A stretch of 52,765 nucleotides of DNA from a bacterium (GTDB lineage Bacteria; Campylobacterota; Campylobacteria; Campylobacterales; Sulfurimonadaceae), in assembly GCA_018824305.1 (NCBI GenBank), contig JAHJGM010000033.1:1-52765 (forward strand), written 5' to 3'. The first letter of the stretch is position 1. Every line of letters begins with the position of its first letter. Of the stretch, positions 16,805 through 22,121 are shown one piece after another. The position numbers and the translations under genes were made by a program. The notes under the pieces were generated by a model. The model did no database searches. It was not told where the DNA came from and saw nothing but the letters and a program-made list of their open reading frames with translations.

Positions 16805-18751
16805 TTAAAAGATCAATTCCTCATTTTTCTTCTCTGTATTGTCATTTTTTGGCGGCTTGGATGTATTTGTAAAATACTCCGTTTCATTGGCAATTTTAAC
16901 TTCGATGACACCGTCTGGTTTTGTGAACTTTCTTTTTATCTGCGGATTGCTTTTGAGAAGTTCTTTGTAAAAATAATTAAATGCAGGAGCGGCTGTTTTA
17001 CCGCCTGTCTCTCTTGCATGCATCGGAGTGTTGTCATCATTTCCAAACCATACTACGGTCTCGATAGTAGGCGAGTAGCCTGCAAACCATGCATCGACAT
17101 TGTTATTGGTTGTACCGGTTTTTCCCGCTAATTCTATTCCGCTGACTCTGGCATTGCGGCCGGTTCCTCTTTTGATGACATCTTGTAAAATCGAGGTCAT
17201 AAGATATGTTTGTTCAGGAGATGTAATGTATTTCTTTTTTACCTCTTGGCGAAAGACGACCGTTGAATTTTTTTCCACTTTTTTTATGATGAAAGGTTCT
17301 ACCTGAACACCGTGATTTGCAAAAGAGCTGTAGTATTGTGCCAGTTCAAGCGGCGAGAGCGAAATAGAACCGAGTGATAATGATAGATCTCGAGGCAGGT
17401 TCTTTATGCCGTAACTCTCAAGAGATTGTATCATCGTGTCAAGACCGATATCTGTGACGAGATTGATCGTAGCAAGGTTTCTTGAATGAACGAGCGCTTC
17501 ACGTACCGTGATAAGACCCTTGTAGTTTTTCTCATAGTTCGCCGGTTGCCATTTCATCTCTTCGCCGTCTTTTTCATACTCGTAGGTTTTTGCGATATCG
17601 ACCAATTGCGAAGCTCCCGAATAACCAAGATCGATAGCTACCTGATAAAGAAAGGGTTTAAATGCACTTCCAGGCTGACGTTTACCTTGTGTAGCACGAT
17701 TGTACGAGCTTTTATCATAGTCGATACTTCCTACAAGTGCCAATATGTCTCCGCTGCATGGCTCGATACTGACTAAGGCTCCGTTTAATTGAGATATATT
17801 GGTGTCATTGGAGTCTTCACTGGAAGAGACCCTCTGTATCGCCGAATCATAGGCAAACTTTAGGGCGTCTCTTCCGCTTTTTTGCATATTGAGATCGATC
17901 GTTGTATATATATCATATCCTCCGGTTTTTATATCGGGGAAATCTTTGCTAAGTTCTCTTAAGACTTCGTCGACGATAAAGGGTGCTTGATTTTGAGTGA
18001 GAGTCGAGTCATAAACATGTGGTTGTTCTTTTGTTGCTTTCTCGTATGTTTTCTCATCGATCCAGCCGAGTGAATGCATACGCTCGATAACACGGTTCGC
18101 ACGGCCAAGCGATATTTCGTAATTTTTAGTAGGGGAGTAAAAGCTCGGTGCTTTAGGAAGCCCCACGAGTATCGCCATCTCTTTAAGCGTTAGGTTTTTC
18201 AAGTCTTTATGAAAGTAGCCGTCTGCTGCAGTTTTGATCCCATAGTATCCATGTCCGAGGTATATTTCGTTTAAATAACGCTCTAGGATATCCTGCTTGC
18301 TTAGTTCGCGTTCAAGTTTCATGGAAAAGATAAGCTCTTTTAGTTTTCTTGAAATCTTTTTTTCACGAGTGAGCAGAGTGTTTTTTACAAGTTGTTGGGT
18401 AAGCGTACTTGCCCCCTCTACCATCTTTCCTGCTTTGATGTCTTTAATGATCGCACGAAAGATCGCATCAAAATTCACTCCGGGATGTTCAAAAAAAGTA
18501 GTATCTTCTATGGCGAGCAGTGCTTCGATCAAACGAGGCGGTATCTCATTGAAACTAGCGTAATATCTATGCTCGTCATTAAAAAGATTTGCTATTTTTT
18601 CGCCGTTTCTGTCATAGATCCTAGTTGTCAGCATCGGTTTGTAGTTTATCAGTTTATCCAGATCATAGTTATACTGCGTGAAGTAATAGCCGACGAGTAA
18701 GAAAGGCGATATAAAGATAAGTGAAATAATAGAGATAATTGTTTTTTTCAT
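16805..18751 (-). CDS. Bifunctional peptidoglycan synthase, PBP1A family
   Basis: A 648-residue class A penicillin-binding protein anchored by one N-terminal helix (about residues 5-27). The glycosyltransferase domain shows the catalytic Glu82 in EDTTFFEHPG, then GASTLTQQLVKN and the RKLKE/YLNEIYLG motifs. The transpeptidase domain shows SAFK (SxxK), SRN (SxN) and KTGTT (KTG). All active-site motifs are intact. It polymerises lipid II and crosslinks the strands in the periplasm. The start overlaps the stop of the upstream ABC gene as ATGA. The C-terminal tail is rich in Lys, Asn and Thr. Confidence 0.94.
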   Translation of the reverse strand: MKKTIISIISLIFISPFLLVGYYFTQYNYDLDKLINYKPMLTTRIYDRNGEKIANLFNDEHRYYASFNEIPPRLIEALLAIEDTTFFEHPGVNFDAIFRAIIKDIKAGKMVEGASTLTQQLVKNTLLTREKKISRKLKELIFSMKLERELSKQDILERYLNEIYLGHGYYGIKTAADGYFHKDLKNLTLKEMAILVGLPKAPSFYSPTKNYEISLGRANRVIERMHSLGWIDEKTYEKATKEQPHVYDSTLTQNQAPFIVDEVLRELSKDFPDIKTGGYDIYTTIDLNMQKSGRDALKFAYDSAIQRVSSSEDSNDTNISQLNGALVSIEPCSGDILALVGSIDYDKSSYNRATQGKRQPGSAFKPFLYQVAIDLGYSGASQLVDIAKTYEYEKDGEEMKWQPANYEKNYKGLITVREALVHSRNLATINLVTDIGLDTMIQSLESYGIKNLPRDLSLSLGSISLSPLELAQYYSSFANHGVQVEPFIIKKVEKNSTVVFRQEVKKKYITSPEQTYLMTSILQDVIKRGTGRNARVSGIELAGKTGTTNNNVDAWFAGYSPTIETVVWFGNDDNTPMHARETGGKTAAPAFNYFYKELLKSNPQIKRKFTKPDGVIEVKIANETEYFTNTSKPPKNDNTEKKNEELIF

Positions 18752-19437
18752 TCGCGAAATTTCCTGTTTGCAAAGTTTGCATCTATGAGTGTTTTTGTAT
18801 AGTTGTCTTGTGGAGATTGTAATACGTCTGTCATTTTACCAAATTCTATAACTTTTCCGTTTTTTATGACGCAGATTTCATCACAAAGCATTTTTGCGGA
18901 ACTCATGTCATGGGTGACAAACAGGATCTTAAATCCAAATCTGCTTTGAAGTTCTTTGACTAAATCGATTATCGTGATTTTAGTCTGCGGATCAAGAGCA
19001 GTCGTGGGTTCATCAAGAAGCAGAAGTTTTGGGTTGGTGCTAAGCGATATGGCGATGATGACGCGTTGAAGCTGTCCGCCAGAGAGTTCCGGAGGATAGC
19101 GTTCAAGCAGTGAAAGCTCTAGGTTTACCTGAGAAAAAAGCGTTTCTATCTCCTTCAAGGGTACAAATATCTGGTCTTTTATCTTTGTGAGCGGAGAGAG
19201 TGCCGTAAAAGGGTTTTGCGGAACGAATCCTATGGTCTCTCCCGCGATCAGATTAAAATCGCTCTCTACATGTAAGGTCGATCGCATCTCGTTTGGAAGC
19301 ATGTTTAAAAGAGCTTTTATACTGAGACTTTTACCGCTTCCGCTTTGTCCCACAAGTGCCAGTGACGAACCGATACTAAAATCGATATCGACTAAAGTTT
19401 TTTCTTTATGTGTAATATGAAGCTTAGATACTTTCAT
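18748..19437 (-). CDS. Orphan ABC transporter ATPase, Opp/Dpp-like
   Basis: A 229-residue ATP-binding subunit. Walker A GQSGSGKS is at 30-37, the Q-loop near FVPQNP (71-76), the signature LSGGQ at 118-122, Walker B LLLLDEP ending at 144, and the H-loop His176. It most resembles the OppD/DppD/NikD peptide-nickel group, but it is short and lacks the C-terminal oligopeptide extension. There is no permease or binding protein in the window. It overlaps bioF by 14 bases and PBP1A by four, so expression is coupled to both. The substrate is unknown. Confidence 0.88.
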   Translation of the reverse strand: MKVSKLHITHKEKTLVDIDFSIGSSLALVGQSGSGKSLSIKALLNMLPNEMRSTLHVESDFNLIAGETIGFVPQNPFTALSPLTKIKDQIFVPLKEIETLFSQVNLELSLLERYPPELSGGQLQRVIIAISLSTNPKLLLLDEPTTALDPQTKITIIDLVKELQSRFGFKILFVTHDMSSAKMLCDEICVIKNGKVIEFGKMTDVLQSPQDNYTKTLIDANFANRKFRE

Positions 19438-20530
19438 CTAGCAGCCTTTTTACTCTTTCGCATAGCTCTTGAAAAACAGAGATGTCATCATCGATTCTTG
19501 CGATGATACGCAAGATGGCACTCTCGACGGTCGGTTGTCTGATGGCGCCTATGATGTAACCCTCATTGCGAAGTTCATCCCTTATATCGATCACTTTTTT
19601 ATTGTCTCCTATGATGATAGGGACGACAAGAGAGGGAGTATCTACATGTAGAATCTCTTTGACTATTCTTTGGCGCGCGATTATCTTCTCTTTGAACTCT
19701 CTTTTGTTTTGGAGTATATATTTCAATGAATTGTGTGCCAAAAGCGTGTCATACAGCGAAAGTGAAGTGGCATAGATGATGGGTTTGGCGCGGTTTGTCA
19801 AGTACTCGACAATGTGGGAGGAGGCGAGGATATAAGCGCCAAAGCTTCCGTAAGCCTTGCCGAGTGTACCCATTTTGATGTAGTTTGGTTTTATCTTTAT
19901 ATCAAAAAGGTCATAGACACCCATAAGATTTTCGCCTACAACTCCGCTGCTGTGAGCTTCATCCACGATGAGTATCGCATCCTCTTCGTCACAAATAGCA
20001 AATATCTTTTCATCCATCAGATCGCCATCCATTGAGTAGATACCCTCAACCGCGACTATTTTTCTTTTTGCATCTGAAGCTTGAAGGAGTCTTTTTAATT
20101 CGTCGCTATCGTTATGCTTGAAAAACTCTACATGCAGCTCATTCAAATTACTTGCCAGAACACCCGAAGCATGGAACTTTTCATCCATAAAAAGGGTATC
20201 GCCTTTTCGCACAAGACTCTCTATAAGGGCAATATTTGCATTAAATCCGCTGCCTAAAACTACAGCGTCTTCAAAACCGTTGACCTCGCACAGTGTCGCC
20301 TCGAAATCTTTATGTATCTGATGATATCCGCTTACAAGAAGTGAAGCTTTTGGACTGTGAACGGGATTGAGTGAGAGCTCTTTACATGTAAGGATATGTA
20401 GCTCCTTATTTGAAGCAAGACCGAGATAGTCGTTTGAAGCGAAATCTTTTAAACTATAATCAACGATTTCTCTTGTTCTGTAACGATTTGATTTTTTGAG
20501 CGCTTTTAGCTCATTTACATAGTAATTCAT
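19424..20530 (-). CDS. bioF: 8-amino-7-oxononanoate synthase (or related alpha-oxoamine synthase)
   Basis: A 368-residue fold-type I PLP enzyme of the alpha-oxoamine synthase group. BioF joins pimeloyl-CoA (or pimeloyl-ACP) with alanine in biotin synthesis. Visible features are the FASNDYLGLA N-terminal motif, DEAHSSG at 190-196, and the PLP lysine Lys225 in GTLGKAYG. Glycine C-acetyltransferase and serine palmitoyltransferase share the fold, so the substrate is inferred. There is no ribosome site before the ATG, and a perfect TATAAT ends seven bases before it, so the mRNA may be leaderless. It diverges from the 6S RNA gene. Confidence 0.88.
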   Translation of the reverse strand: MNYYVNELKALKKSNRYRTREIVDYSLKDFASNDYLGLASNKELHILTCKELSLNPVHSPKASLLVSGYHQIHKDFEATLCEVNGFEDAVVLGSGFNANIALIESLVRKGDTLFMDEKFHASGVLASNLNELHVEFFKHNDSDELKRLLQASDAKRKIVAVEGIYSMDGDLMDEKIFAICDEEDAILIVDEAHSSGVVGENLMGVYDLFDIKIKPNYIKMGTLGKAYGSFGAYILASSHIVEYLTNRAKPIIYATSLSLYDTLLAHNSLKYILQNKREFKEKIIARQRIVKEILHVDTPSLVVPIIIGDNKKVIDIRDELRNEGYIIGAIRQPTVESAILRIIARIDDDISVFQELCERVKRLLDESI

Positions 20531-20537
20531 GGGGTGT

Positions 20538-20543
20538 ATTATA
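20538..20543 (-). promoter_or_regulatory. -10 box of bioF promoter (predicted leaderless transcript)
   Basis: TATAAT on the minus strand. Standard spacing puts the first transcribed base at 20531, one base before the A of the bioF ATG. The intervening bases are ACACCCC, with no ribosome site. Confidence 0.6.
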
Positions 20544-20564
20544 ACTAAGTAAGCAAAAAAAGTG

Positions 20565-20570
20565 TATAAT
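20565..20570 (+). promoter_or_regulatory. -10 box of the 6S RNA promoter
   Basis: TATAAT preceded by GTG. The predicted start is near 20577, coinciding with the 5' strand of the 6S closing stem. It is only 21 bases from the opposed bioF -10 box, so the two polymerase footprints overlap. Confidence 0.65.
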
Positions 20571-20575
20571 TTTAA

Positions 20576-20775
20576 CAGTCTGAGTGGTTCGACTACGTGC
20601 TTATGAGAGGGTTCTACGTATACATCTAGCGAACTTTGTAGAAATCTTTGTGTGTCGATGATCTCGTTTGAGGTAGGTTAACTCTGCCGAGAGACTGTCG
20701 CCTGATAAGATTCTCGTTTTGCTAATTTTTTTGCTTTGAGAACCAAAGCGATTTGCACAACGGCTGCTCGGGCTG
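20576..20775 (+). ncRNA. ssrS: 6S RNA
   Basis: The 322-base gap between bioF and purD holds no gene but a structured RNA of about 200 bases. The 5' end CAGUCUGAG (20576-20584) pairs over nine positions with CUCGGGCUG (20767-20775), closing a long rod. The centre has an apical hairpin GGUAG/CUGCC (20672-20676 with 20684-20688). Length, terminal closing stem, central hairpin, a strong TATAAT promoter and position upstream of purD all fit 6S RNA, which mimics an open promoter and sequesters sigma-70 RNA polymerase. From memory, the Helicobacter 6S gene is also next to purD. The large central bubble is not modelled here. No tmRNA, RNase P or SRP hallmark was seen. Confidence 0.78.
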
Positions 20776-20824
20776 AAATAGCTAATTTAGATTATTCTAG
20801 TAATCTAAATTAGCTATTTTTTTA
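20776..20824 (+). terminator. Strong terminator after 6S RNA
   Basis: A perfect 19-bp stem (20776-20794 with 20801-20819), six-base loop and a T-run to 20823. It begins directly after the 6S closing stem and separates the RNA from purD. A TATAAT at 20832-20837 could start purD but would leave a leader of only about nine bases. Confidence 0.85.
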
Positions 20825-20852
20825 TAGATTTTATAATTTCAAGGATTGTTTG

Positions 20853-22121
20853 ATGAATATTTTAGTTGTTGGTAGCGGTGGACGTGAATTCTCGATAGGA
20901 CGTATGTTAAAAAAAGACCCTGTCGTAGAGAAGCTGTATTTTGCCCCTGGAAACGGTGCTACTGACACTTTAGGAGAAAATCTCTCTATCAAAGATTATA
21001 GTGAACTTGCGGATTTTGCAAAAGAAAACGCGATCGATCTGACGATCGTAGGACCTGAAGCCCCTTTAACTGAGGGCATAGTCGATATCTTTAAAGCAAA
21101 AGGCCTGACGATATTTGGACCAAGCAAAGAAGCTGCTCGTTTAGAGGGTTCAAAAGTCTATATGAAAAACTTTTTGGCAAAATACAATATTCCCACAGCC
21201 CGTTATATAGAGACCGATTCTATCGAAGATGCTTTTAAATTTATAGATACGCTTCCTATTCCTGTTGTCGTTAAAGCTGACGGGCTTTGTGCGGGCAAGG
21301 GCGTAATCATCGCAATGACTCACGATGAGGCAAAAATCGCAGTCTCAGAGATGCTCAGCGGAAAAAGTTTTGGAGATGCAGGTCTAAAAGTAGTCGTTGA
21401 AGAGTTCTTAGACTGGTATGAGCTTTCTATGTTTGCGATCTGTGACGGAAAAGATTTCATCCTGCTTCCAGCAGCACAAGACCATAAACGTCTGATGGAT
21501 AACGATGAAGGTCCAAATACAGGCGGTATGGGGGCATACGCTCCGACGCCTTTAGTGGATGATGTGATCTATGAGAAAGTAAAAGAGAGAGTCATCCGTC
21601 CTACGCTTGAGGGGATGCAAAAAGAGGGCGCACCATTTGAGGGCGTTCTTTTTATCGGTCTTATGATTGTCAAAGGCGAGCCGATCACATTAGAGTTCAA
21701 TGTGCGTTTTGGCGATCCTGAGTGCGAGATCTTGATGCCGCTTATGAAAACCCCTGCACGTGAACTGTTTTATAAAGCAGCGACGGGTAAACTCGATGAA
21801 CTGAATGTAGAGTTTGAAAATAAATTTGCCGTAGGTGTCGTGATGGCAAGCGGTAACTATCCATATTCTGATTCTATTCCCGCTGAGATAGTGGTAGATG
21901 AGATAGTTCATGATGAGATAAAAGAAAATACGCATATCTCGTATGCGGGCGTGAAAAAAGAGGACGGCATCCTTTATGCGACAGGCGGACGCGTTCTGGT
22001 CTGTGTCGGTACGGGTGATTCGATCAAACAAGCAAGAGACAGAGCGTATATGCTTTGCGGACAAGTTCATTATGTAGGCAAAAAGCTTCGTACGGATATA
22101 GCGTATCAGGCACTTGAATAG
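20853..22121 (+). CDS. purD: Phosphoribosylamine-glycine ligase
   Basis: A 422-residue ATP-grasp enzyme for the second step of purine synthesis, joining glycine to phosphoribosylamine. It begins with the family motif [16 protein letters not shown]-grasp features include [13 protein letters not shown] near residues 140-152, [19 protein letters not shown] and [12 protein letters not shown] 20853 has AAGGA eight bases upstream; a TTG one codon earlier is unlikely. Length is typical. It leads an operon with an RDD protein, lptD, a PRTase-like gene and pnp, with gaps of zero or less throughout. Confidence 0.96.

Follow-up and report, generated by a model that had tools for sequence, protein, structure and literature searches.

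A predicted 6S RNA upstream of purD, facing a bioF-like operon, in a genus of Sulfurimonas relatives

6S RNA in Campylobacterota and the locus studied here

6S RNA, widespread among bacteria, mimics an open promoter and ties up RNA polymerase. In Campylobacterota, its location upstream of purD is already known. The most highly transcribed non-coding RNA of Campylobacter jejuni after rRNA and tRNA sits upstream of purD, is 185 nt long, folds as a 6S RNA and is accompanied by an antisense 13-nt product RNA (PMC3847290). It starts further upstream than a predicted purine riboswitch at the same place, the purD ‘riboswitch’ being a shortened version of it, and its levels are not significantly regulated across growth phases (PMC3847290). 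The same paper also assigns the purD-upstream region of Helicobacter pylori to 6S RNA, with a product RNA reported (PMC3847290). The Rfam entry for this region, RF01069 (‘purD RNA motif’), is nevertheless typed as Cis-reg, that is, as a purD cis-regulatory motif.

The window analyzed here is the whole 52,765-nucleotide stretch of contig JAHJGM010000033.1, from a genus (g1) whose nearest named relatives are Sulfuricurvum and Sulfurimonas. Eight genomes of this genus were available, and the 6S locus was found in seven. As in the original prediction, which proposed a 6S RNA with a divergent neighbor, the locus is a gene-free gap with the positions given there, flanked by a bioF-like gene (19424-20530, minus strand) and by purD (20853-22121, plus strand), which encodes phosphoribosylamine-glycine ligase (TIGR00877, 490 bits, over the cut-off). 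The gap RNA is predicted to be a 6S RNA, an already known RNA now placed in another genome. It resembles the C. jejuni and H. pylori 6S RNAs in lying upstream of purD, in being of similar length (~198 nt predicted, versus 185 nt in C. jejuni), in having a closing stem, a bubble and a terminal arm, and in the sigma-70 -10 box directly upstream. It differs in the divergent bioF-like operon upstream, whose -10 box faces that of the 6S RNA.

Homology, conserved structure, a conserved -10 box, a terminator-like hairpin and gene order together make it nearly certain that the gap holds the organism's 6S RNA, transcribed from its own TATAAT box, folded into a rod with an internal bubble, ended by a terminator and followed by purD, with probable competition from a bioF promoter in this genus only. 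A genus of Sulfurimonas relatives thereby gains a 6S RNA whose predicted boundaries are defined.

Homology and structure of the RNA

Regions upstream of purD were gathered from relatives in the family and the phylum, and a covariance model (R1) was built from 30 sequences, with genus g1 excluded. R1 matches the window over its full length at 20576-20776, with 165.8 bits. Together with the consensus pairs, it predicts both ends of a mature RNA of ~198 nt at 20577-20775 on the plus strand. A cmscan of the gap finds RF01069 as the single Rfam element, at 20638-20773 on the plus strand (80.4 bits, gathering score 41), covering the 3' two-thirds of the predicted 6S RNA. The general 6S model RF00013 (6S/SsrS) has no match in the window even at E values up to 10, nor in the whole genome, where no second 6S RNA was found. 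RF00013 alone is insufficient to reveal the 6S identity of the RNA.

The missing match does not settle the matter, since the general model fails across the whole phylum: RF01069 is over its cut-off in 228 of 249 genomes and RF00013 in none, so that annotation relying on RF00013 misses the 6S RNA of Campylobacterota. RF01069 is present in 57 of the 61 genomes of the family and in 236 of the 249 of the phylum. In four Campylobacterota genomes, the RF01069 match is nested in a full-length RF00013 match of 29.4-38.2 bits (cut-off 46.4), and in a fifth genome, from a family designated f5, RF00013 reaches 45.7 bits against the gathering score of 46.4. Homology to the established 6S family is therefore traced through intermediates, same-locus relatives that match both RF01069 and, below threshold, the full length of RF00013; the window RNA shares the 6S/SsrS architecture, but its sequence is too diverged for a direct match.

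The structure was derived from an alignment of 49 divergent copies, each spanning the RNA from its predicted start through the closing stem. RNAalifold gives a single rod of 42 pairs, 30 of which show two-sided compensatory changes, and the window forms the full set of 42. Pairing is held in 94.5% of pair cells across the 49 homologs, versus 36-49% (maximum 48.7%) when the partners are slid by 1-3 columns, a comparison in which the true register is favored since the structure comes from the same alignment. The two-sided changes are the stronger evidence, with 288 cells versus 83 expected on shuffling, and none of the shuffles reaches the observed pairing values.

The 5' strand of the closing stem (20578-20600, plus strand; segments 20578-20586, 20589-20591 and 20597-20600) pairs with 20755-20773, and 11 of its 16 pairs show two-sided changes that keep the pairing. 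The pairing of the two ends described in the original prediction is recovered, the consensus rod being closed by 20578-20586 with 20765-20773, beyond which more helices stack; in the minimum-energy fold the closure is 20576-20585 with 20766-20775. Further in, a GGUUC helix strand (20610-20614, plus strand) pairs with GAACC at 20740-20744 in 100% of cells, with two-sided changes in two pairs. Above this helix lies a large internal loop (5' side 20615-20628, 3' side 20723-20739), a putative promoter-mimic bubble that we infer from its position to be the 6S central bubble. The terminal arm (20629-20722, plus strand) comprises helices 5-8, defined by consensus structure and covariation, with an apical loop at about 20666-20690. 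The RNA thus has the closing stem, internal bubble, terminal arm and compensatory changes of a 6S rod.

The 294-nt stretch, terminator included, has a fold z-score of -3.96, and none of 200 shuffles is as stable. The unconstrained single-sequence minimum-energy fold is branched, at -62.2 kcal/mol, versus -54.6 for the rod-constrained fold, a gap of 7.6 kcal/mol. The rod of about 200 bases in the original prediction therefore stands on covariation and not on single-sequence energy, and the branched fold was set aside in its favor.

The 6S identification proposed at the outset is upheld by the R1 score, the covariation and the 6S RNAs at the same locus in C. jejuni and H. pylori. RF01069 describes the same RNA, with a model that lacks the 5' ~60 nt and hence the entire 5' strand of the closing stem. 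There is strong evidence that RF01069, which appears to be a 5'-truncated and mis-typed model of the Campylobacterota 6S RNA, should be read in this way, and it favors a 6S RNA acting in trans over the cis-regulatory typing. By analogy with 6S RNAs elsewhere, the RNA would fold so that its internal bubble imitates an open promoter, would bind the sigma-70 RNA polymerase holoenzyme, and would probably be released once the enzyme has copied a short product RNA from the bubble.

The facing promoters

The -10 box of the 6S RNA, TATAAT at 20565-20570 on the plus strand, is read directly from the sequence and is found at the same place in 133 of 136 loci, with TAnnAT in two more. Transcription is predicted to start at about A20577, the A of AGUCUGAG. 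On sequence evidence, the locus has the sigma-70 promoter of its own, and with ~198 nt the RNA length of about 160-200 nt, that mark a 6S RNA. A second TATAAT (ATTATA on the plus strand) at 20538-20543 is the predicted -10 box of the divergent bioF-like gene on the minus strand, 7 nt from its ATG. The two boxes face each other 21 nt apart, as originally described, and the arrangement recurs in all seven genomes of the genus that have the locus, the bioF box lying 6-7 nt away from the ATG and at a distance of 21-23 nt from its 6S counterpart. Dinucleotide shuffling of the 47-nt gap yields the pair of boxes in 0.4% of cases. The distance to the ATG fits the rule gnTAnaAT-N5-9-ATG for leaderless mRNAs (PMC3847290), and a leaderless bioF mRNA is accordingly predicted.

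The bioF-like gene has 8-amino-7-oxononanoate synthase as its top match (TIGR00858, 284.6 bits), under the cut-off of 426, so that its name is probable rather than certain. It is overlapped by an ABC ATPase gene (18748-19437, minus strand), which is in turn overlapped by a PBP1A gene (16805-18751, minus strand). Given these overlaps, the bioF promoter probably drives a mixed operon, and the bioF unit appears also to carry the ABC ATPase and PBP1A genes.

The predicted starts of the two transcripts lie about 46 bp apart, so the polymerase footprints must overlap, which makes promoter competition likely. Geometry and general knowledge make it plausible that the 6S and bioF promoters compete for polymerase, and mutually exclusive firing, as originally proposed, is a fair reading of the geometry. 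The accompanying description of covered ‘-35 zones’ is misleading, since the sigma-70 promoters mapped for C. jejuni lack a -35 box (PMC3847290). At the level of sequence, the facing and overlapping promoters are real and are kept within genus g1, a modest arrangement peculiar to it. In titles and abstracts of the literature, no obvious precedent was found for a 6S RNA with overlapping divergent promoters. Within this genus only, the 6S and bioF-like operon promoters probably compete, with the 6S promoter expected to win, which offers a minor example of promoter interference open to experiment.

A further step would be that, in this genus, the 6S promoter has come to lie next to a leaderless bioF operon, and that 6S transcription continuously represses the operon by promoter occlusion. 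This is improbable, if not negligibly so; were it true, the operon, with its PBP1A gene and a gene of the biotin pathway, would serve as a local readout of free polymerase.

Considerably less credible is the circuit of the original prediction, in which mutually exclusive promoters tie the 6S level to biotin synthesis through feedback between 6S RNA, sigma-70 activity and bioF. The near-constant spacing of the facing boxes in the seven genus genomes with the locus would suit such a circuit. However, bioF was seen beside the 6S RNA in genus g1 only, and the upstream gene is co-directional in 115 of the 134 loci scored (a count in which some genomes enter more than once), in many of them hemD-like from a reading of the protein. 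The bioF unit moreover seems to be of mixed content, a reading of the gap found no biotin-responsive element, and the 6S levels of C. jejuni, with no significant regulation across growth phases, also speak against it. With the bioF neighbor seen in one genus only, the biotin feedback is unsupported and need not be invoked; the predicted 6S RNA, with probable genus-specific promoter competition, is retained.

The 3' end and the linkage to purD

The RNA would end at about 20775, where a 19-20-bp AU-rich hairpin with a T-run (20776-20823, plus strand; stem 20776-20819) is predicted to stop transcription before purD begins. This intrinsic terminator lies directly after the RNA, as had been proposed. 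Its stem is kept with compensatory changes in two loci of the set, L009 and L011, and no hairpin of comparable strength was found in the other four members of the genus. Across the wider set, a strong terminator-like hairpin is present in the searched stretch of 34 of 138 loci. The RNA ends at most 35 nt from purD in 33 of the 138, and the 30 loci of one family, together with a small number of further loci, have a spacer of 15-35 nt. The formation of the 6S 3' end evidently varies among loci.

The linkage to purD is widespread but not constant. In four genomes of family f5 (L148, L149, L151 and L152), where the RNA matches RF01069 with 32-35 bits, under the gathering score of 41, no purD was detected within ~1.5 kb. 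The RNA in this family keeps guaA- and hemD-like upstream neighbors, names that come from a reading of the protein sequences.

These observations bear on the least probable alternative, that the RNA is a cis-regulatory purD leader, a riboswitch or attenuator sensing a purine-related signal with the hairpin at 20776-20823 as a conditional terminator: the Rfam type, the common purD linkage and the short spacers through which purD may arise by read-through fit it, but it is very hard to reconcile with a conserved structure that requires the 5' strand beyond the RF01069 model, with the abundant 185-nt RNA and antisense product RNA of C. jejuni (PMC3847290), with strong hairpins in so few loci, with an unsystematic look that noticed no alternative anti-terminator pairing, and with the family f5 genomes, which make a cis-acting leader inadequate, whereas everything observed agrees with a 6S RNA that stands on its own.

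Another TATAAT is present in the window after the terminator, just upstream of purD (20832-20837); the genus alignment shows no conservation of this box, which is therefore not claimed as a purD promoter. Whereas a strong terminator separates the 6S RNA from purD here, in loci L111-L140, from the family that apparently holds Campylobacter, the RNA ends 15-27 nt before purD. With so little room for a terminator, transcription from the 6S promoter may run on into purD, and processing may generate the 3' end of the 6S RNA in these loci.
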